The notes below the pieces were generated by a model. That model saw nothing but the letters and a program-made list of their open reading frames with translations. It ran no database searches and had not been told where the DNA came from. The position numbers and the translations under genes are program-made. This document shows positions 35,536 to 45,860 of a stretch of DNA of 64,000 nucleotides, one piece after another. How positions within the stretch are numbered: position 1 is the first letter of the stretch; every line of letters begins with the position of its first letter. The DNA is from Fischerella sp. PCC 9431. Its GTDB lineage: Bacteria > Cyanobacteriota > Cyanobacteriia > Cyanobacteriales > Nostocaceae. The stretch is taken from contig NZ_KE650771.1 of the NCBI RefSeq assembly GCF_000447295.1, positions 3,607,964-3,671,963 on the forward strand. Reading direction: 5' to 3'.

Positions 35536-35636
35536 ACTCTACATTTGCACCGCACAGATACAGAGAAGACAGAGAAAGTTGTTAAGATATTCCTACATAT
35601 AGATATTAATCCCAAGTAATCAAAAGTTACTGCGTG

Positions 35637-36275
35637 ATGAAGACAAAAAAGCCTTTCAAATCGAGATTAAGTCAAACTGCTTGTTACTTGAGTCTGGGTA
35701 TTTTGATCGTCACAAATACATCGCAGTTTGTTTCTGCACAGGAACAAAGACTAGCACAACTTCCTGGTGGTGATAGTGGACAGACAGAGCGATCGCAATT
35801 AATTCAAATAGCAAATAATTTATTAAACCAAGGTGATTTAGCTGGCGCAGAAGAGAATTTGCGAAAATTGATCAAGAAGTATCCTAAAGATGCTTTTGGA
35901 TATTTTCAGTTAGGAAATGTCCTGTCTCGTCAAAAGAAAAATGACGAAGCGATGAAACAATATCAAGAAGCAATTCGTTTAGATTCTAAATACGCCCTAG
36001 CATATAATGGTATGGGGCTTGTGTTTGCCAATCAAGAACAATGGGAAGATGCGATCGCACAATATAATAAAGCACTAGCAATTAATCCTAATTATGGTGA
36101 TGCGCTAACTAATCTAGCTCAAGCACAGTGGGAATCAGGTAAAAAAGAGGAAGCGATCGCATCTTTAGAAAAAGCTTTGAGTGTTTTTAAATCCCAAAAT
36201 AGACCACAAAGGGTACAACGAATTCAAGAGATTTTACGAAAACTGAAACCTGGTGATGACCCAAGTGTTTCGTGA
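35637..36275 (+). CDS. secreted or periplasmic TPR protein
   Basis: 212 residues from ATG 35637. A GTG directly before it is an alternative. A signal peptide (basic start, hydrophobic LSLGILIVTNTSQF, cleavage near VSAQEQ) precedes about three to four TPR units (LLNQGDLAGAEENLRKLIKKYP, AFGYFQLGNVLSRQKKNDEAM, ALAYNGMGLVFANQEQWEDAI, YGDALTNLAQAQWESGKKEEA). It ends with a short basic helix. It is probably a scaffold at the cell envelope or in the lumen; the partner is unknown. Confidence 0.85.
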   Translation: MKTKKPFKSRLSQTACYLSLGILIVTNTSQFVSAQEQRLAQLPGGDSGQTERSQLIQIANNLLNQGDLAGAEENLRKLIKKYPKDAFGYFQLGNVLSRQKKNDEAMKQYQEAIRLDSKYALAYNGMGLVFANQEQWEDAIAQYNKALAINPNYGDALTNLAQAQWESGKKEEAIASLEKALSVFKSQNRPQRVQRIQEILRKLKPGDDPSVS

Positions 36276-37733: not shown

Positions 37734-38606
37734 ATGAACAATAATAATGATGACCCCAGTCAAAAATCAGATTCCTCGAAACTAAATGAAATGCGGGTGA
37801 AACCGGCCTCTGAAAAAACAGGAGTTTTACCGCGCTCAATTGGCAGAACATTTAATAGAATTACATCTGATTTTTCTCCAGACGCAGAAGAAAAGTATCT
37901 GAGAAACTTTCAAATTTCGCGCAACAGGACAAGAATCGCAATCCGCTTTTTAGTCATGCTGATTGTTGTTCCACTGTTAACTCAATATTTCTCTAAGGAA
38001 TTATTAATCAGTCCGATTGTCGAACGTGTGCGAGGGGAAAATACACCTCAAATTTTCCTCAATGAAGAGATGGAAGAAAAAGCACTACAAGAACTCAAAT
38101 TTTATGAGCAAGAACTGAGATTTGAAAGCTTATTGCGGAAATCTCCGCCACTTGCTCCAGAAGTGATTGAAGCAAAAGTAAAAGATAAAGCCAAAGAAAT
38201 TGCGGAAAATTTTCGTCAGGAAAGTCGCAATGCTATTAGTAATGTGTTTGCGGATTTAGTTTCACTTGTTGCTTTTGCTTTTGTCATAGTTACAAGCAAA
38301 CGAGAAATAGTGATTGTAAAATCATTTATGGATGAGATTATCTATGGTTTGAGCGATAGTGCCAAGGCTTTTTTAATTATTTTATCTACAGATATATTCG
38401 TCGGGTTTCACTCACCGCATGGTTGGGAGGTGATTCTAGAAGGAATTGCCGAACATTTAGGATTACCAGCTAACAGAGATCCAATATTTTTATTTATTGC
38501 TACCTTTCCCGTGATTTTAGATACTATATTTAAATATTGGATATTCCGTTATCTCAGTCGGTTGTCGCCTTCAGCACTCGCTACATTAAAAGAGATGAAT
38601 GAGTGA
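37734..38606 (+). CDS. CemA/PxcA-family membrane protein
   Basis: 290 residues. It has a polar N-terminus (about 60), a first helix (IAIRFLVMLIVVPLLTQYF), a charged loop with EEKALQELKFYEQELRFESLL, and three more hydrophobic helices. The C-terminal part FMDEIIYGLSDSAKAFLIIL ... FVGFHSPHGWEVILEGIAEHLG and IFKYWIFRYLSRLSPSALAT is the CemA signature. PxcA/CemA proteins act in light-driven proton extrusion and help CO2 uptake. At 290 residues it lacks the long N-terminal part of PxcA (about 440 in Synechocystis) and is closer to the shorter PxcL type. It is next to a carbonic anhydrase gene, which supports a role in pH and carbon balance. Confidence 0.87.
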   Translation: MNNNNDDPSQKSDSSKLNEMRVKPASEKTGVLPRSIGRTFNRITSDFSPDAEEKYLRNFQISRNRTRIAIRFLVMLIVVPLLTQYFSKELLISPIVERVRGENTPQIFLNEEMEEKALQELKFYEQELRFESLLRKSPPLAPEVIEAKVKDKAKEIAENFRQESRNAISNVFADLVSLVAFAFVIVTSKREIVIVKSFMDEIIYGLSDSAKAFLIILSTDIFVGFHSPHGWEVILEGIAEHLGLPANRDPIFLFIATFPVILDTIFKYWIFRYLSRLSPSALATLKEMNE

Positions 38607-38615
38607 TTATTATTT

Positions 38616-39605
38616 ATGCGTGCAATGCTGTTAGAAGCGCCACATCAACCTCTGCGATTAGTTGACTTACCTGTACCCAAACCAAAACCAGAACAAGTAC
38701 TGATTCGTGTTCATGCTTGCGCTGTTTGTCGTACAGATTTGCATATTGTCGATGGGGAATTGAAAGACCCAAAACTACCTTTAATACCAGGGCATCAAAT
38801 TGTCGGTATTGTAGAAGCAGTAGGAGAACAAGTAGAAAAATTTCAATTAGGCGATCGCGTTGGTGTTCCCTGGTTAGGTTATACTTGCGGTCACTGTCGC
38901 TATTGTGTTTCGGGACGGGAAAACCTTTGTGATTATGCCAAGTTCACTGGTTATCATCTCGATGGCGGTTATGCTGAGTATACGGTTGCTGATCACCGCT
39001 TTTGCTTTTTTATTCCTGAAGGTTATCCCGATTTACAAGCCGCACCATTATTATGTGGTGGGTTGATAGGTTATCGCGCCTATAGAATGGCTGGTGATCA
39101 TGTCGAAAAACTCGGTTTTTATGGTTTTGGTTCTGCTGCCCATATTTTAAATCAACTGGCACGTTATCATGGGCGGCAAGTTTTTGCTTTTACTCGTGCT
39201 GGTGATACTCAAGGACAAGAATTTGCTCGTCAATTGGGTGCTGTGTGGACTGGTGGATCTGATGAATTACCTCCAGAACCCCTAGATGCAGCAATTATTT
39301 TTGCTCCCGTAGGTAAATTAGTTCCTGCTGCTTTGCGTGCGATCGCCAAAGGTGGTGTAGTAGTTTGTGCTGGAATTCACATGAGTGAAATTCCCGCTTT
39401 CCCCTATGAAATTCTGTGGGAAGAAAGAGTGTTGCGATCGGTTGCAAACTTAACTCGCCAAGACGGCGAAGAATTTCTCGCCCTCGCACCCCAAGTTCCA
39501 ATTCGCACAGAAGTTAATCTATTTAACTTGAGTGAAGCAAACGAAGCTTTGGATGCTCTACGCAGTGGTAAAATTGAAGGCTCGGCTGTATTGGTTGTTG
39601 ATTAG
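38616..39605 (+). CDS. zinc-dependent alcohol dehydrogenase family protein
   Basis: A 329-residue MDR-type oxidoreductase. Catalytic zinc ligands are C38 and H60 (ACAVCRTDLH, IPGHQIVG). Structural zinc ligands are C91, C94, C97 and C105 (CGHCRYCVSGRENLC). The nucleotide-binding region (LGFYGFGSAAHILNQLA) has a GFGSAA turn in place of the standard GxGxxG. The protein matches the AdhP-like group with DLHIVDGEL and FTGYHLDGGYAEY. It starts 9 bp after the PxcA-like gene, so the two probably share a transcript. The substrate is unknown. Confidence 0.9.
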   Translation: MRAMLLEAPHQPLRLVDLPVPKPKPEQVLIRVHACAVCRTDLHIVDGELKDPKLPLIPGHQIVGIVEAVGEQVEKFQLGDRVGVPWLGYTCGHCRYCVSGRENLCDYAKFTGYHLDGGYAEYTVADHRFCFFIPEGYPDLQAAPLLCGGLIGYRAYRMAGDHVEKLGFYGFGSAAHILNQLARYHGRQVFAFTRAGDTQGQEFARQLGAVWTGGSDELPPEPLDAAIIFAPVGKLVPAALRAIAKGGVVVCAGIHMSEIPAFPYEILWEERVLRSVANLTRQDGEEFLALAPQVPIRTEVNLFNLSEANEALDALRSGKIEGSAVLVVD

Positions 39606-39663: not shown

Positions 39664-39890
39664 TAATACCAATTTGAAAAATGCGACAAACCAATCTTGT
39701 AGAGACGCGATTTATCGCGTCTGATATCCTAAATGATCGCGTTTCATATCCAGAGCGATCGCGTTTCATATCCTAAATGATCGCATCTCATATCCTGAAT
39801 CGCATCTCATATCCAGAGCGATCGCGTTTCATATCCTGAATCGCATCTCAAATTCCAAATGCGTCGCAAACATTTTTTGAATTGGTATTA
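39664..39890. mobile_element. TAATACC-type MITE-like element (copy c, expanded)
   Basis: The ends TAATACCAATTTGAAAAATG and CATTTTTTGAATTGGTATTA are inverted repeats, followed inward by CGACAAA and its inverse GTCGCAAA. The core is GTAGAGACGCGATTTATCGCGTC. It is ~100 bp longer than copies a and b. The extra length is tandem CATATCCnnAnTGATCGCGTTT/CATCT units. It ends 23 bp before the CHAT gene start, so it can influence that gene's promoter. Confidence 0.75.
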
Positions 39891-39913: not shown

Positions 39914-41533
39914 ATGGCTCAAACTCGAAACATCTTGCTGTTATCAGCAAATCCTAGAAACACCAGCCAACTGCGTCTAGCTGAGGAGATGCGCGATATA
40001 AAAGAAGGATTAAGACTTTCAGAAAATCGTCATCTATTTACAATTAATACAACAGAAGCTATACGTCCCAGAGATATACGTAGAGCTATTTTGACATATA
40101 AACCACAAATTATTCACTTTTCTGGACACGGTTCTGCTGAAGAAGGTTTGGTATTTGCAGATGAAACAGGTGCAATCAAATTTGTTGATGGTTCAGCTTT
40201 AGCTGGTTTATTTGAATTATTTGCCAATCAAGTCGAGTGTGTAGTTCTCAATGCGTGCTATTCCAAATATCAAGCTGCGGAAATTGCCAAACATATTAAT
40301 TATGTCGTGGGGATGAGTCAGAAAATTCATGATCAAGCCGCAATTGAATTTGCTGTGGGTTTTTATGATGGACTGGGAGCAGGTGAAAGTTATGATTTTG
40401 CTTATAAATTAGGTTGTAATGCTATTTTGATGGCTGGAATCAAACAGCATTTAATTCCAGAATTAATTAGTTCAGAAAATTTAAACTTGCCTTTATCATC
40501 AACAGATTCATCTCAAGAATATCCTTCCGAAGTATCCCAGAATATCTATATTGAAAGACCACCAATTGAAGCCAAATGTGATCAAGAAATTTTAAAGCCA
40601 GGAGCGCTGATTCGGATCAAAGCGCCTCAGAAGATGGGTAAAACTTGGCTGTTGGAAAATTTGTTGTCCTTTGCCAGAAAGCAGGGTTATCAAACAGTAA
40701 AATTAGATTTACAGCAAGCCGAAAACTCGATTCTGGATAACTTGCAAACTTTCTTGCAGTGGGTATGTGTTGATGTTTCTGATAGCTTAGATATTCCGCC
40801 TCAAATTCAGGAAACTTGGCAAGATATATATGGTTTGAATAAAAATTGTACTCGTTACTTTCAGAAGCATTTCTTATCAGTTAGCGAAAGTCCTTTAGTC
40901 TTTGCGATAGATAACTTTGAACGGCTGTTTCAATATCCAGATATTTTCTCTCAATTTTGCTTACTTTTGCGGGGTTGGTATGAAAATGCTAAAGGAGGAG
41001 ACAGGAAAGCTAATATTTGGAAGAAACTGCGGTTAATAGTAGTTCATTCAACAGAAGTTTATCCTGATTTGGATAGCAATCATTCACCATTTAATGTTGG
41101 TGTACCAATTGAATTACCTGAATTTAATCAACAGCAGGTAAAAAGTTTGGCGACTGCGTATGAGTTAGAGCAAAAATTGGGAGAGCAAAATTTAATTAAG
41201 TTAATAAAGTTAATCGGAGGACACCCTTATTTACTACAACAATCATTTATTCACCTCAAACAACAGCAAATTAACTTAGAGCAATTATTTACCCTTGCAC
41301 CCACAGAAGAGGGAATATTTAGCGATTATCTGCGACAACAATTGTGGCATTTACAACATAATTCTGCCCTAGAGATAGGGTATAAAAAAGTAGTAACGGC
41401 AAATGCACCTGTGCGACTTGATGCTGAAGTTGGATTTAAGCTGCATAGTTTGGGGTTAGTCAAACTTTCAGGTAATGATTGCGTTCCTAGCTGCGATTTA
41501 TATCGTCAGTATTTTTCCGAGCGTTTGCTGTGA
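39914..41533 (+). CDS. CHAT-domain protease fused to an AAA-type STAND NTPase
   Basis: 539 residues. The N-terminal CHAT domain (1-190) is a caspase-like cysteine protease fold with catalytic H72 (IIHFSGHGS) and C115 (VVLNACYS). The next half is a P-loop NTPase of the cyanobacterial 'AAA-like' type. Its loop is APQKMGKTW (about 236-244, Lys 243), its Walker B-like segment is LVFAIDNFERLF, and it has GGHPYLLQQ and a C-terminal winged-helix (LHSLGLVKLSGNDCVPSCDLYRQYF). Both catalytic centres look intact. The next gene carries a homologous NTPase (RQSGKSS, GGQPFLTQK, same winged-helix). CHAT proteases act in bacterial immunity and regulated cell death in other systems. That role is inference here. 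A MITE-like element abuts the promoter. Confidence 0.9.
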   Translation: MAQTRNILLLSANPRNTSQLRLAEEMRDIKEGLRLSENRHLFTINTTEAIRPRDIRRAILTYKPQIIHFSGHGSAEEGLVFADETGAIKFVDGSALAGLFELFANQVECVVLNACYSKYQAAEIAKHINYVVGMSQKIHDQAAIEFAVGFYDGLGAGESYDFAYKLGCNAILMAGIKQHLIPELISSENLNLPLSSTDSSQEYPSEVSQNIYIERPPIEAKCDQEILKPGALIRIKAPQKMGKTWLLENLLSFARKQGYQTVKLDLQQAENSILDNLQTFLQWVCVDVSDSLDIPPQIQETWQDIYGLNKNCTRYFQKHFLSVSESPLVFAIDNFERLFQYPDIFSQFCLLLRGWYENAKGGDRKANIWKKLRLIVVHSTEVYPDLDSNHSPFNVGVPIELPEFNQQQVKSLATAYELEQKLGEQNLIKLIKLIGGHPYLLQQSFIHLKQQQINLEQLFTLAPTEEGIFSDYLRQQLWHLQHNSALEIGYKKVVTANAPVRLDAEVGFKLHSLGLVKLSGNDCVPSCDLYRQYFSERLL

Positions 41534-41597
41534 TATTCAGTAATTTTGCAGGGTGTGCTAGCGTAGCGTCAAAAGTCAAAATATTACAAGGTTGACC

Positions 41598-41778
41598 CTT
41601 AAAGTTACAACATTAAGGCTTAAGATTACAACATTAAGGCTTAAGGTTACAACATTAAGGCTTAAGGTTACGACATTAAGGCTTATTGTTACAACACTAA
41701 GGCTTATTGTTACAACATTAAGGCTTATTGTTACAACATTAAGGCTTATTGTTACAACATTAAGGCTTAAGATTAAAG
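41598..41778. repeat. 21-bp minisatellite, GTTACAACATTAAGGCTTAAG unit
   Basis: Eight units with exact 21-bp steps (CATTAAGG at 41611, 41632, 41653 ... 41758). Units alternate between an AAGGTT and a TATTGT linker. It lies between the CHAT-NTPase and NTPase-GUN4 genes. Its frames are open on both strands and I treat them as spurious. The sequence is unrelated to the 21-bp arrays at 27107 and 58100. Confidence 0.92.
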
Positions 41779-42039
41779 CGATCGCTGTTGACCGATAATT
41801 CATTAATGGTACAGAGCAAGCAGATTTATCTGTAAGGTCAATCCAAAATCCAAAATCTAAAATCCAAAATCGATTGACTACTCACTGCAAAACCAATCTC
41901 ACAAGAGCGATTGCGATCACTAGCTCACTCTTGGATGCTATTTTTTCCTTATTGATTTTGATTTTTTTGGCTAATGATCGCTTGACTTTTAAGACAGTCG
42001 CGACAAGAATCTTATTTTTCTGAGCGTTTGGGGTAAATC
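41779..42039. other. spacer upstream of the NTPase-GUN4 gene
   Basis: About 260 bp with an AAAATCC/AAAATCT heptamer string at 41840-41870. The segment 41880-42039 is unique and probably holds the promoter of the next gene. No gene is seen. Confidence 0.4.
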
Positions 42040-44544
42040 ATGTTTGACGAATACAGATTTTCCGGGAGTCTACCAGAAAACGCCAGCACCTACGTCACGC
42101 GGGAAGCTGATACAGAATTATATGAGTCGCTGACAGCAGGGAAATTTTGTTATGTTTTAAACTCCAGACAATCAGGAAAATCTAGCATCCGGGTGCGAAC
42201 TATGCGACGGTTAGGGGATGCTGGAGTCGAATGTGCTGCGATCGATTTATCTGCGGGTGGTGTGCAGAATGTCACACCCGAACAGTGGTATGTGGATTTG
42301 ATTGATAATTTAATTGAAAGTTTTGCTTTAGATATAGATTTAGCAGACTGGTGGGAAGAGAATAGATTACATTCAGAAGTCACAAGATTTCGCAAGTTTG
42401 TTGAAGAGGTTTTGTTAGTTGAAGTCAAAGAAAATATTGTTATTTTTATTGATGAAATTGATAGTGTTCTCAGTTTAAATTTTCCTACAGATGACTTTTT
42501 TGCTTTAATTCGCGCTTTTCACAATCAACGAGTTGATAATTCCGATTATAACCGCCTGACTTTTTGTTTGTTGGGGGTAGCTTCACCGAGTAATTTAATT
42601 CAAGATAGACAACGCACACCATTTAATATTGGCAAAGCAATTAGTCTCAAAGGTTTTCAATTGCATGAAGTCGAACCTTTAATCAAGGGTTTGGAAGGGA
42701 AGTTTGCAGACTCACGCGAGGTAATGCAAGAGATATTAAATTGGACAGGAGGACAACCATTTTTGACGCAGAAATTGTGTCAGTTAATGGTGGAAGCATC
42801 AGAGAAAGATCATCCTCGTTCGGTTGAGCAGGTAGCGATAACTAAGATAATTGAAAATTGGGAATTGCAAGATGAACCGGAGCATTTACGCACGATTCGT
42901 AGTCGAATTTTAAGAGATGAAGAACAGGCTGGGTATTTATTAGATTTATATCAGCAAATTCGTTCTGATGGAGAAGTTTTAAATAATGATAGCGTCGAAC
43001 AAAGCGAGTTATTATTATCGGGTTTGGTTGGCAAACAGCAGGATAAATTAAGAGTTTATAATCGTATTTATCAGGAAGTTTTTAATCTCAATTGGGTGGA
43101 AGCAGAATTAAAAAAATTACGTCCCTATTCGGAAGCTTTTAGAGCCTGGGTTGCTTCTGGGTGTGTTGATGAGTCGCGACTTTTGCGAGGGAAAGCGCTG
43201 AAAGATGCGGAAGAATGGGGGAAGGATAAGAATTTAAGTTATCAGGATAAACAGTTTTTAGCTGCTAGTAGAGAGAAGGAAATTCAGGAGGAAATTGTTG
43301 CGAGGGAAAAAGAAGCGCAGTTAGATAGGGAGAGGAAAGATAGGGAAGCAGCTGAGGAAAGAAACTTATTATTAACGAAAGCGAATATAAAAGCTAAACG
43401 GCAAATTCGTAATGGTTCTGCTATTTTATTATTGGCTTTATTGGTTGCTGGAATTTTAGGAGTATTTGCAGCAAGAGAAGGAAAGAAGCTGGCTTCGATA
43501 GAGAATGAAATTAAAACTGTTCAAAAACTATCTCAATTAGCTGGAGATTTACGTAATGAGAATCTGGAATCTGAGTCAGATGAGGCTTTAAGACAGGCTG
43601 GTTTATCCTTTAGAGTGAATGACCATAATCTTAAACAAGCACTGTTATTGGCTTCTATGGCGCAAGCATATCAGCAACTTGAAAAGCCAGAAGATGCAAG
43701 ACAAAATATTACTGAAAGCTTGAAGTATTTACAAGACAAAGGAAATAATATTAATTCTGAACAAGGACTGCAAATAAAAGTTTTAGCTAAGGAGATTGAA
43801 GGTAAATTATTTAATGATAACCATAAAACAATAGAATCTTATAAAGAAGCATATAAAATTCTTAAAACTCATCCTTATGAAACTAACCCTTTCAAAAATA
43901 ATCAAATCATCACGGCTCAAAATATTGAATCTGTCCATCGAGGATTACTTAATTTACTGGCAAATCAAAATCAAGAAAATTTGAGACAACAGGTTCGGGA
44001 ATCTCTTAAACAGCACTTTTTTGCTGAATTGGAATCCTTTTTGAAAGCGAAAAAATGGCAAGAAGCCGATTATAAAACTTGGCAGATAATGATTTTTATT
44101 GCTAATCCAGAAAAAGAAGGTCCTATTGATTACCCACAAATAGAGAATTTTTCTTGTCCTGTCCTAAAACAAATTGATGATTATTGGGTACAAAACTCAA
44201 AAGGAAATTTTGGTTTCAGCGTGCAGAAGAAAATTTGGGTAGATACAGGAAATAGACTGGGTATAAAACCAGAAGATTGGAATGAGAACGATACAAAAAA
44301 TTACTTACGCTTTGCTAGCGCTGTCGGATGGTACAATGACAAAAAAGATAATGAAAAAGAGTCGGACTTTGTGGAATACGACGAGTACATGAAGCGTATA
44401 AACGAAGACCCAACAGACCCAGGGGTAAGTGGAGGGCTACCGGCGTTTGTCAGGTTCCACTATGATGGAAGCCCGGCGGTTGCGGGGGGGGCGGGGGAGG
44501 GGGCGTCTTTTCTTGCGCTGCGATTTGTAAACTGTAACATATAA
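42040..44544 (+). CDS. AAA-type STAND NTPase with membrane helix and C-terminal GUN4 domain
   Basis: 834 residues. Residues 1-350 are an 'AAA-like' NTPase. The P-loop is NSRQSGKSS (41-49, K47) and Walker B is IVIFIDEIDSVL, followed by GGQPFLTQKLCQL and a winged-helix. A charged coiled coil (about 405-455) leads to one membrane helix (SAILLLALLVAGILGVFAA, about 458-478). A helical, probably TPR-like, region follows (LSFRVNDHNLKQALLLASMA). Residues about 660-834 are a GUN4 domain: FLKAKKWQEADYKTWQIM, PVLKQIDDYWVQ and GNFGFSVQKKIW. GUN4 binds protoporphyrin IX and its Mg form and is a tetrapyrrole sensor. The last 40 codons are unusually G-rich (G8-C-G5-A-G5 at 44486-44506), and the usual GHLP is GGLP. 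It follows the CHAT-NTPase gene on the same strand. Confidence 0.9.
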   Translation: MFDEYRFSGSLPENASTYVTREADTELYESLTAGKFCYVLNSRQSGKSSIRVRTMRRLGDAGVECAAIDLSAGGVQNVTPEQWYVDLIDNLIESFALDIDLADWWEENRLHSEVTRFRKFVEEVLLVEVKENIVIFIDEIDSVLSLNFPTDDFFALIRAFHNQRVDNSDYNRLTFCLLGVASPSNLIQDRQRTPFNIGKAISLKGFQLHEVEPLIKGLEGKFADSREVMQEILNWTGGQPFLTQKLCQLMVEASEKDHPRSVEQVAITKIIENWELQDEPEHLRTIRSRILRDEEQAGYLLDLYQQIRSDGEVLNNDSVEQSELLLSGLVGKQQDKLRVYNRIYQEVFNLNWVEAELKKLRPYSEAFRAWVASGCVDESRLLRGKALKDAEEWGKDKNLSYQDKQFLAASREKEIQEEIVAREKEAQLDRERKDREAAEERNLLLTKANIKAKRQIRNGSAILLLALLVAGILGVFAAREGKKLASIENEIKTVQKLSQLAGDLRNENLESESDEALRQAGLSFRVNDHNLKQALLLASMAQAYQQLEKPEDARQNITESLKYLQDKGNNINSEQGLQIKVLAKEIEGKLFNDNHKTIESYKEAYKILKTHPYETNPFKNNQIITAQNIESVHRGLLNLLANQNQENLRQQVRESLKQHFFAELESFLKAKKWQEADYKTWQIMIFIANPEKEGPIDYPQIENFSCPVLKQIDDYWVQNSKGNFGFSVQKKIWVDTGNRLGIKPEDWNENDTKNYLRFASAVGWYNDKKDNEKESDFVEYDEYMKRINEDPTDPGVSGGLPAFVRFHYDGSPAVAGGAGEGASFLALRFVNCNI

Positions 44545-44641
44545 GCATCACAGCCATTTTTTAATATTTGTTTCTCAGTGAATTTCTACGAATAATTAAG
44601 CATTTGGCAATTTCGATACCTGACACTGGGGAAGCGTGGGA

Positions 44642-44806
44642 TTATTGGAATAACTGCGCCGCTATTTTGGGGTCATAGCAATTAGCTGTTACAAACTGTT
44701 CTCCCACCTCGCGTACTTCTGAATCAGCAACTTCCCAATCATCCCAAGGTAGCCGCATTTGTCCAGAAGAAGCCTTATTTTTCCTTTTACCCTTACCGCG
44801 CGTGAC
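44642..44806 (-). pseudogene. coding remnant, family not recognised
   Basis: A minus-strand frame without a start, bounded upstream by a stop in the repeat region. It reads GKGKRKNKASSGQMRLPWDD, then WEVADSEVREVGEQFV and NCYDPKIAAQLFQ before TAA (44642-44644). The amino-acid use is that of a real protein C-terminus (basic linker, then an acidic amphipathic end). It is directly followed by GACGCG and TATCCCGCC repeat elements, which probably replaced the 5' part. Confidence 0.4.
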
Positions 44807-44883: not shown

Positions 44884-44928
44884 AACCCCAAAATGATGAC
44901 GAAATTGTTAACCGAACCGTGTTGCAAC

Positions 44929-45547
44929 TATCCCGCCTCGGAATGAATTCCGAGTCTAATAGCGAAACTCCTCTTCATAGGACTCAACACGACATTTAGT
45001 CCACTTAAGTGGACTTTGGCTATCAGCCCGGAACTTTAGTTCTGGGCGGAATATTCTGCTAATGTGTACACACAAATCTTACCGCACGCGACCTATCCCG
45101 CCTCGGAATGAATTCCGAGTCTAATAGCGAAACTCCTCTTCATAGGACTCAACACGACATTTAGTCCACTTAAGTGGACTTTTGCTATCAGCCCTGAACT
45201 TTAGTTCTGGGCGGGATATTCTGCTGAGTGTACACACAAATCTTACCGCGCGCGACCCATCCCGCCTCGGAATGAATTCCGAGTCTAATAGCGAAACTCC
45301 TCTTCATAGGACTCAACAAGACATTTAGTCCACTTCAGTGGACTTTTGCTATCAGCCCGGAACTTTAGTTCTGGGCGGGATATTCTGCTAATGTGTAGAC
45401 ATAAATCTTACCGCACGCGACCTATCCCGCCTCGGAATCAATTGCGAGTCTAATAGCGAAAGTCCTCTTCATAGGACTCAACAAGACATTTAGTCCACTT
45501 AAGTGGACTTTTGCTATCAGCCCGGAACTTTAGTTCTGGGCGGAATA
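44929..45547. mobile_element. four tandem 125-bp elements with TATCCCGCC inverted ends
   Basis: Copies lie at 44929-45053, 45094-45218, 45258-45382 and 45423-45547. Each is 125 bp and each repeats at a 164-165-bp step, with a ~40-bp spacer (TTCTGCTAATGTGTACACAC...). Each begins TATCCCGCC and ends GGCGGGATA or GGCGGAATA. Inside are three hairpins: CTCGGAATGAATTCCGAG, AGTCCACTTAAGTGGACT and CCCGGAACTTTAGTTCTGGG. That gives a cloverleaf-like fold. Copies differ by only a few bases, so amplification is recent. The last copy ends 10 bp from the acyP stop codon. The family is related to 13286-13444 and 52484-52625. Confidence 0.88.
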
Positions 45548-45557
45548 TTCTGCATAG

Positions 45558-45860
45558 TTACTCAACACGCCTAACTTCAAATCTCCGTAAACCTTCCGGT
45601 TCTTCGTACTCCACTATCACATCTTTAACCATAGCCGCAGGTGGGCCTTGATGACACCAGCGAATCATGTCTTCTACAACTTCCTGCACACCTTCAAATA
45701 CAGCTTCGACGCGACCATCGGGGAGATTTCGCACCCAACCACTTAATCCAAGTTGACTAGCTGTATCGACGGTAGCAAAGCGATAACCTACGCCTTGAAC
45801 TCTACCAGAAATAAATAAATGGGCGCGGATTGACTGCGACATCTGTGTAGGATTCTGCAT
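45558..45860 (-). CDS. acyP: acylphosphatase
   Basis: 100 residues. A small ferredoxin-like fold enzyme that hydrolyses acyl phosphates. The catalytic loop GRVQGVGYR with its Arg, and the Asn in [12 protein letters not shown], are present. The rest ([19 protein letters not shown]) is typical. The start may be the first Met or M7 ([10 protein letters not shown]); the shorter form fits the family better. It is followed by four tandem palindromic elements and preceded by GACGCG palindromes. Confidence 0.93.

Follow-up and report, generated by a model that had tools for sequence, protein, structure and literature searches.

A recurrent cyanobacterial pair of AAA_35 NTPase genes, one with a CHAT protease-like domain and one with a GUN4 domain of hypervariable tail, as a candidate split STAND receptor

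A 64,000-nucleotide stretch of the Fischerella sp. PCC 9431 genome (contig NZ_KE650771.1; hereafter the window, whose own numbering is used throughout) carries two neighbouring genes, here termed A and B, that each encode an AAA_35 NTPase. A joins its NTPase to a CHAT protease-like domain and B joins its NTPase to a predicted membrane helix, a TPR-like region and a GUN4 domain. Genes of these two types form a recurrent two-gene module in cyanobacteria, and their adjacency is no accident. The GUN4 domain of B belongs to a paralog group in which a hypervariable tail, closed by a DNA element with stops in all three frames, stands in place of the published ligand motif. We propose, with confidence evenly balanced for and against, that A and B would form a split STAND receptor in which B, a membrane sensor with a diversified tip, triggers the CHAT protease A.

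Gene A (39914..41533, + strand; 539 amino acids) would be the effector half and gene B (42040..44544, + strand; 834 amino acids) the sensor half. Both reading frames were open over these coordinates and Pfam found AAA_35 in each, so that the earlier note, made from the sequence by a model, was right in describing same-strand neighbours with related NTPases. In A, residues 7-159 matched CHAT (PF12770, E 2.5e-9; 39932..40390, + strand) and residues 204-536 matched AAA_35 (PF14516, 422 bits), the A-type NTPase with its winged helix and a GKT Walker A occupying 40523..41521 (+ strand). The CHAT dyad H72/C115, which had been read as intact, was present in A and conserved in 29/29 aligned CHAT-A sequences (A of the window counted in). 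A resembled the SAVED-CHAT protein 8tl0 in sequence (phmmer, E 9.5e-15) and in fold (Foldseek, E 1.4e-10), and its model (pLDDT 76) also matched archaeal SSO1545, ORC proteins, the plant NLR RPP1 and Avs3, with TM-scores that were low for the whole models of both A and B. By its dyad and CHAT fold A is a CHAT protease, proteolysis itself being a prediction. PADLOC matched A to the single-protein models chat and SAVED_CHAT only (CHAT model, E 1.1e-16).

In B, Pfam assigned residues 8-348 to AAA_35 (110 bits; B-type NTPase, 42061..43083, + strand) and residues 657-772 to GUN4 (PF05419, 82 bits; paralog type, 44008..44355, + strand). The membrane helix was placed at about residues 458-478 (43411..43473, + strand) by sequence reading and a hydropathy scan, in a part of the structure model that was of low confidence; with a single hydropathy threshold, one hydrophobic segment past the NTPase was found in 52/79 B-type proteins and none in 27/79. 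Helix and GUN4 domain are thus where the earlier note had seen them. Residues 481-640 (43480..43959, + strand) form a helical TPR-like region in the AlphaFold model (block pLDDT 79-94 from residue 491), and Pfam gave no TPR match on B. The best solved chain for the B model in Foldseek was the STAND-TPR protein 6mfv; the model also matched ORC2 and, weakly, Avs4. The PADLOC model PD-T4-6 matched B over residues 627-771, the GUN4 region (E 1.5e-25); this model may label GUN4 paralogs as defence proteins from the GUN4 domain alone.

The nucleotide-binding motifs were strongly conserved in both NTPases. In A-type sequences the Walker A lysine was present in 81/81, the first Walker B Asp in 76/81 and the Pro of the GGHP motif in 81/81; B-type sequences kept the Walker A Lys in 79/79, Asp138 in 77/79, Glu139 in 79/79 and the Pro of GGQP in 79/79. 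The second acidic position of Walker B was mixed in A-type proteins (E46 N20 D8 K6 Q1, n = 81; E or D in 54/81) and is Asn in A of the window. Judged by Walker A and B, by GxP, a STAND motif, and by the fold relatedness of the models to ORC/STAND proteins, A and B are both STAND NTPases. Since the Walker B Glu is invariant in B and mixed in A, these sequences suggest that B is the working ATPase of the pair.

The pairing was measured in 13 genomes of the same family, that of Fischerella sp. PCC 9431 included. AAA_35 stretches were split by Pfam score (A-type above 170 bits, B-type below 140, none between among the matches listed), giving at least 150 stretches of which at least 83 were A-type and at least 67 B-type. 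Among the matches listed, 36/83 A-type genes were followed on the same strand by a B-type gene no more than 1.5 kb away, compared to 0.09 expected at random, and a further 4/83 had B upstream on the other strand. No A-A or B-B neighbours were found within 3 kb in the matches listed for these genomes (0), and the pairing is therefore not a fresh tandem duplication. Finding the pair in other cyanobacteria had been named in the earlier note as the first check, and the adjacency does recur there. B lay within 3 kb downstream in 35/40 chosen A regions (the 20 best matches from other genomes and 20 spread over the lower ranks); in one of the five regions without B (L059), A is followed close to the end of the contig by an 83-amino-acid open reading frame that matches the start of B. 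The median A-B gap was 63 nucleotides over 64 collected pairs, and the gap in the window is unusually long and contains a 21-bp tandem repeat of 8.2 copies (41598..41770). Further tandem repeats, of 22 bp and 41 bp, lie directly 5' of A (39714-39861). Plasmids of Nostoc HK-01 and Nostoc cf. commune SO-36 each carry one A-B pair close to restriction genes. On a plasmid of Nostoc C057 (L136), a frameshift and a copy of IS630 interrupt the B gene of an A-B pair ahead of its GUN4 part.

The distance matrices of A and B agreed closely over 64 A-B neighbours, which came from regions fetched for A or B matches (r 0.855, reached in 0/2000 permutations). When partners were shuffled only within the 11 multi-pair genomes, which moved 27/64 pairs, r was 0.757 against a permuted mean of 0.469 and maximum of 0.737 (0/5000). 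At the level of sequence distances this shows that true partners were inherited jointly and that the two NTPases are separate paralogous families.

The domains attached to the two NTPases varied among relatives. Pfam analysis of 11 A proteins revealed CHAT heads in two, TIR in three (one with an additional sigma-type helix-turn-helix (HTH) domain and one with an additional cyclase), a LuxR HTH in one, an XRE-type HTH in one and no recognised head in four; 2/11 carried C-terminal extras (GGDEF, cyclase). The tails of nine B proteins comprised GAF in two (one with PAS), CHAT in two, GUN4 in two, a periplasmic binding protein in one and no recognised domain in two. Reading by eye only added WD40 tails and a histidine-kinase tail to this list, together with kinase and alpha/beta-hydrolase-like heads. 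Swapped domains on both halves would look like the pattern expected of interchangeable effector and sensor halves.

The particular combination in the window also recurs. A CHAT-A gene adjoins a GUN4-B gene or lies within about 2 kb of it in at least six of the 13 family genomes (the own genome, G405, G495, G500, G502 and G503), with B preceding CHAT-A in G500. Scytonema hyalinum (G497) has a natural A-B fusion (L217:2908-6132, on the same contig as G497:C52), a single protein in which CHAT is followed by a hybrid NTPase, its front from A and its end from B, and then by TPR and GUN4. With the fusion the combination is present in at least 7/13, a count based on the loci to which match positions pointed. 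The closest pair is that of G503, with A 85-90% identical and the B NTPase 89%. An element scan described below added Nostoc linckia FACHB-104, Rhizonema sp. PD37 and Cyanocohniella sp. LLY as hosts of CHAT-A with GUN4-B, and CHAT similarity was weak (25-29%) in Calothrix rhizosoleniae and Calothrix MO_167.B12. A search with the TPR-GUN4 part of B in 388 genomes, in which few candidates were scored per genome and pairs found later were missed, gave matches in at least nine genomes besides the own. Among those nine, G405 has a CHAT-A, G295 a truncated A and G369 a TIR-like A whose B ends at the contig end before GUN4; the contig of G476 was too short and the match in G262 is not an AAA_35 protein. 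In G118 GUN4-B lies beside an A without CHAT. The interpretation given in the earlier note is supported in part, by the recurring pair, the joint inheritance of the two paralogous NTPase families, the intact CHAT dyad and the natural CHAT-NTPase-TPR-GUN4 fusion.

Under the split-receptor reading, B would be the membrane-anchored sensor half with a catalytically complete NTPase and A the effector half, with its CHAT protease mounted on a paralogous NTPase. A ligand, possibly supplied by a phage, would be bound by B in its TPR-GUN4 part, the hypervariable tail being the most likely site, and would shift the nucleotide state of B. B might then co-assemble with A through the paired NTPase domains, so that the signal would pass from B to A and CHAT would be activated by proximity; cleavage by CHAT would then halt or kill the cell.

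Several observations weigh against this reading. Among the matches listed, 43/83 A and 27/67 B had no partner within 1.5 kb, though some partners may be missing from these matches, and in the own genome three of the six A genes have a B neighbour and three do not. Linkage alone could yield joint inheritance, which supports contact between A and B without proving it, and the way in which the 64 pairs were collected counts on the same side. The B model was of low confidence overall (pLDDT 61). Many A genes carry HTH domains in place of toxins, which fits ordinary signalling, and one such HTH-A lies beside a GUN4-B in G042; in four of the nine genomes (G448, G450, G473 and G483) A is hydrolase-like and B comes first. 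Finally, B matched nothing in 50,697 phage records.

Some of these points lead to an alternative that we consider unlikely, though it has to be reckoned with, in which A and B are ordinary two-part signal transducers and CHAT cleaves some cellular protein in a regulated manner, comparable to HetF-like development, with no death of the cell. Pfam domains consistent with it are HTH, cyclase and GGDEF in A and GAF, PAS and binding-protein domains in B; the kinase heads and histidine-kinase tail read by eye also agree, as does a weak resemblance of A to HetF (NCBIfam E 2.8e-4, 19 bits compared to a cut-off of 1200). The CHAT, TIR and hydrolase-like heads of A, however, fit a conflict role better, and so do the plasmid copies beside restriction genes and the hypervariable sensor tips.

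What B might sense was approached through the known ligand motif of GUN4. In canonical GUN4 the LxNxLR motif adjoins the bound bilin and its Asn is required for bilin binding in the Chlamydomonas protein, and GUN4 paralogs without LxNxLR are described in the accessible part of the same paper (PMC10156173). For porphyrin, the position corresponding to Arg214 of the Synechocystis protein is important, according to the available text of PMC8967248. LSNQLR followed GHLP in 11/11 canonical GUN4 copies; B has AFVRFH there and keeps 0/4 motif residues. The motif Asn was kept in 0/34 and 1/66 paralogs compared to 11/11 canonical copies, and the motif Arg in 1/34 and 12/66, the two paralog sets overlapping in at least one locus. 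A porphyrin pocket in the GUN4 domain of B is not supported by these sequences. The earlier note had proposed porphyrin sensing by this domain and had named loss of the pocket as decisive against it; for the published LxNxLR motif, loss is what was found. A porphyrin or bilin stress switch, in which GUN4 would bind a tetrapyrrole and so license the protease, has in its favour the GUN4 fold that Pfam found in B and a proposal, in the part of Kaur et al. (2020; PMC7159879) available, that GUN4 senses tetrapyrroles in conflict proteins of cyanobacteria. With the motif residues missing from B, the Asn missing from nearly all paralogs, and that same loss reported for paralogs in a paper that ties the Asn to bilin binding (PMC10156173, in part), such a switch appears very unlikely.

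In place of LxNxLR, B carries a hypervariable tail of 62 nucleotides (44443..44504, + strand), bordered on the left by the codons for GGLP (44431..44442, + strand). At this site each GUN4 paralog differs from the next, both in sequence and in length. Eleven paralog pairs with at least 70% identity in the preceding 150 nucleotides averaged 0.79 identity before the tail, 0.43 in the tail (shuffled, 0.43) and 0.89 in the element that follows, compared to a tail identity of 0.74 (shuffled, 0.49) in 55 canonical pairs. In the clearest pair, from the own genome, identity was 93% before the tail, 41% in the tail, 93% in the element and 94% in the following 120 nucleotides. When B was compared with its orthologue in G503, the noncoding DNA 3' of the gene aligned well and the tail did not. 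Tail length ranged from 24 to 202 nucleotides (median 66, n = 87), and the 87 tails had more G and T and less A than the upstream DNA. Of the 34 first-collected paralogs, the 22 that matched the 27-nucleotide element at 18 or more positions were counted for tails and the 12 below (11-17 positions, mostly no better than shuffled sequence) were left out; from the element set, four tails whose GxLP could not be placed or whose frame was closed were left out (69 open, 66 used). The sensor tip is a strange sequence feature and a well-supported one.

One tail has changed its surroundings. The 92-nucleotide tail of an own gene (C1:2630k) was 98% alike in a gene elsewhere in a congeneric genome (G496), with 88% identity before the tail and 49% after, and the G496 gene with the matching downstream flank has a different tail (49%, 56 nucleotides). 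The first G496 locus combines the left flank of one own GUN4 locus with the right flank of another. As one tail stands at two loci in congeneric genomes, almost unchanged between species, it has moved between loci, probably by homologous recombination. Continuous hypermutation making tails anew was dropped because of this 98% identity. Among the 87 tails two further cases of sharing were seen: L185 and L217 are one locus fetched twice, and the tail on two contigs of one Mastigocoleus assembly (L223, L266) perhaps reflects one locus assembled twice. Four other tail-tail matches (13-23 nucleotides, E 0.004-0.01) were taken as chance. As for capture from mobile DNA, a 202-nucleotide tail had no match in phages and a 154-nucleotide tail none in plasmids, each being one tail of the 87. 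In Tolypothrix PCC 7601 and 7712 the GUN4 proteins share accessions and no element occurred in those regions, which were hence uninformative. Near position 1213006 of own contig C1 (L194:4880-5040) lies a GUN4 remnant whose core is joined straight to the 3' element, with no tail or GxLP, and L193 (G496:C216) encodes an 895-amino-acid protein in which GUN4 occurs three times, along with three element-like sites.

Diversity-generating retroelements (DGRs) were considered as a source of such tails. GUN4-like domains are among those of some DGR targets in the accessible text of PMC7517822. The own genome has a reverse transcriptase with the GLPIGNLSSQ motif near C1 4518553 (L145), beside a formylglycine-type protein with a variable-looking C-terminus, the two together being a likely DGR, and two further reverse transcriptase matches of similar length occur at C1:6532300 and C3:35287. 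As a rule, DGR variable regions keep their length. The tails differ in length (24-202 nucleotides), no second genomic copy of the B tail or the C1:2630k tail was found (E 0.001 and 0.05; these two tails tested) and there is no reverse transcriptase at the locus, on which grounds a DGR origin was rejected; that the tail is a DGR target we regard as extremely improbable.

The tail runs into a 3' DNA element that is conserved among paralogs, TTYTCTCGCRYYNMGACTTGTAAANTGTAACAT followed by a third TAA, its three TAA codons being spaced by 7 nucleotides. Comparison with the consensus identified a divergent copy in the window (44505..44546, + strand), where the TAA codons at 44528, 44535 and 44542 stop one frame each. 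The copy in the window agreed with the consensus at 19/27 positions compared to a shuffled maximum of 16, and 11 canonical GUN4 copies matched at 12-18/27, a level similar to that of shuffled sequence. A scan of one genome per species (84,980 species) gave at least 115 stretches, of which 80 were listed; 80/80 were cyanobacterial by title, and the element was found in no viral contig (0). The listed stretches held 81 copies, with a GUN4 core upstream in 71; of the ten without a detected core, six ran off the edge of the stored locus and one (L211) does encode GUN4. The frame was open up to the element in 69/71 and entered it in all three frames (34, 16 and 19), giving three protein endings, LFSRIETCKL, LLSRRDL and SSLASRLVKCNI. 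Because it is entered in three frames with three different endings, the element is, on this evidence, conserved as DNA and not as protein. As the search pattern predetermines the element, independent findings are limited to frame use, context and flanks. A 4-5 bp stem could form in 61/81 copies, as column composition predicts, with no covariation beyond it, which lends a conserved hairpin no support, and Rfam on 4/80 element loci gave one match far under the family cut-off, taken as chance.

Behind the element lies the C-terminal remnant of a convergent IS200/RAYT-type Y1 transposase (44645..44806, - strand; 50% identity, E 1e-14). Transposases of this type go by the name RAYT; one intact relative matched PF01797 (Y1_Tnp, E 1.1e-18), which confirmed the family. 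HxH and the Tyr of a YIHANP-type motif were present in 10/10 near full-length transposase open reading frames (11 loci examined, nine distinct copies; L322 and L350 are one gene and L248 is split). In the 80 element loci 39/41 transposase matches were convergent and within 1.5 kb of the element, and 33 of the 70 loci with enough DNA had a transposase, whole or in pieces. In the 13 family genomes 19/33 transposase matches lay convergent behind a GUN4 match and none (0) near one in another orientation; a convergent transposase accompanied 17/94 GUN4 matches and 0/13 canonical copies. In the own genome no intact transposase of this kind was seen, only three fragments, which speaks against transposase action there now. 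Near the remnant, at 44928-45553, a unit of 165 bp is present 3.8 times over (95%), accompanied by inverted repeats that by eye resemble the ends of IS200-type elements.

These associations can be read without a sensor. The end of an IS200/RAYT-type element behind GUN4 paralogs would then supply the stops, and recombination between homologous copies would move a weakly constrained tail about. This account agrees with the convergent transposases, as genes or as remnants, with the recombined flanks between two congeneric genomes, with the one tail common to two loci at 98% and with a possible element hairpin without covariation beyond column composition. Against it, 37/70 element loci had no detectable transposase, 69/71 frames were open to the element, and weak constraint alone cannot randomise tails between flanks 93-94% alike; we consider it unlikely on balance, if a serious contender. 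More tentatively, and with doubt on our own side, we suggest that cyanobacterial GUN4 paralogs, B among them, may be receptors served by a dedicated system free of reverse transcriptase, one that swaps C-terminal cassettes of any length, from the GxLP border to the element, with the convergent HUH transposase acting as the exchanger or having founded it. The tip would then resemble complementarity-determining region 3 (CDR3), and B would be a diversified sensor arming its CHAT partner.

The split receptor proposed here shares features with several known systems. Avs and bacterial NACHT proteins join a STAND NTPase to an N-terminal effector and a C-terminal sensor (PMC10907252, as far as its text was available), a plan common to eukaryotic NLRs and reflected in the fold matches to Avs3, Avs4 and RPP1. 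Here, in contrast, effector and sensor reside on two proteins, each with its own NTPase, and B has a membrane helix. The MoxR-vWA ternary, iSTAND and membrane two-gene EACC1 systems, as far as the accessible text of Kaur et al. (2020; PMC7159879) describes them, likewise have swappable protease, TIR and GUN4 domains, are cyanobacterial and in some cases membrane-bound, whereas both proteins here are AAA_35 NTPases. That portion of the paper ties hypervariability to DGRs and module exchange, and describes it for DGR-linked FGS domains, not GUN4. By Pfam, no MoxR or vWA gene was found among four neighbours of the pair (35634-36275, 37734-38606, 38616-39605 and 45558-45860, which gave TPR, CemA, ADH and acylphosphatase), other neighbours being read by eye only. 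On a plasmid of Tolypothrix PCC 7712 (L198), three consecutive genes encode MoxR, a VWA/CoxE protein (so annotated in a sister plasmid) and a GUN4 protein; with genes for caspase, CHAT and toxin-antitoxin pairs close by, the region looks like a defence island that holds a ternary-type system.

Among the texts covered, the nearest idea, in the parts of PMC10907252 available, is that of DGR-diversified STAND sensors, which also have a hypervariable C-terminal tip; theirs are C-type lectin tips made by reverse transcriptase, whereas those described here are GUN4 tips of changing length, and GUN4 has 0 occurrences in that text. Canonical GUN4, the Mg-chelatase cofactor, has the fold in common with B, in which, unlike the cofactor, LxNxLR is gone and a hypervariable tail and three-frame stop element are present. 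The SAVED-CHAT filament 8tl0 shares CHAT, with SAVED in place of the STAND NTPase. Among the matches listed from the open-licence literature on GUN4, RAYT, conflict systems and DGRs there was no description of the A-B pair or the GUN4 tail, and AAA_35 by name led to cyanobacterial sigma factors and, by title, otherwise unrelated topics.

The loss of the ligand motif is a warning against annotating GUN4 paralogs as tetrapyrrole sensors. To our knowledge, the function of the RAYT transposase family is an open question, and if the cassette exchange suggested above is true it would give a role to the IS200/RAYT-type family. The GUN4 tail would then represent receptor diversification in bacteria that needs no reverse transcriptase, in which an insert of any length still ends in a stop. 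If the split receptor is real, cyanobacteria would have divided an NLR-like receptor into swappable halves, such that one type of sensor could be coupled to different partners, among them a protease, an HTH protein and a hydrolase-like protein.

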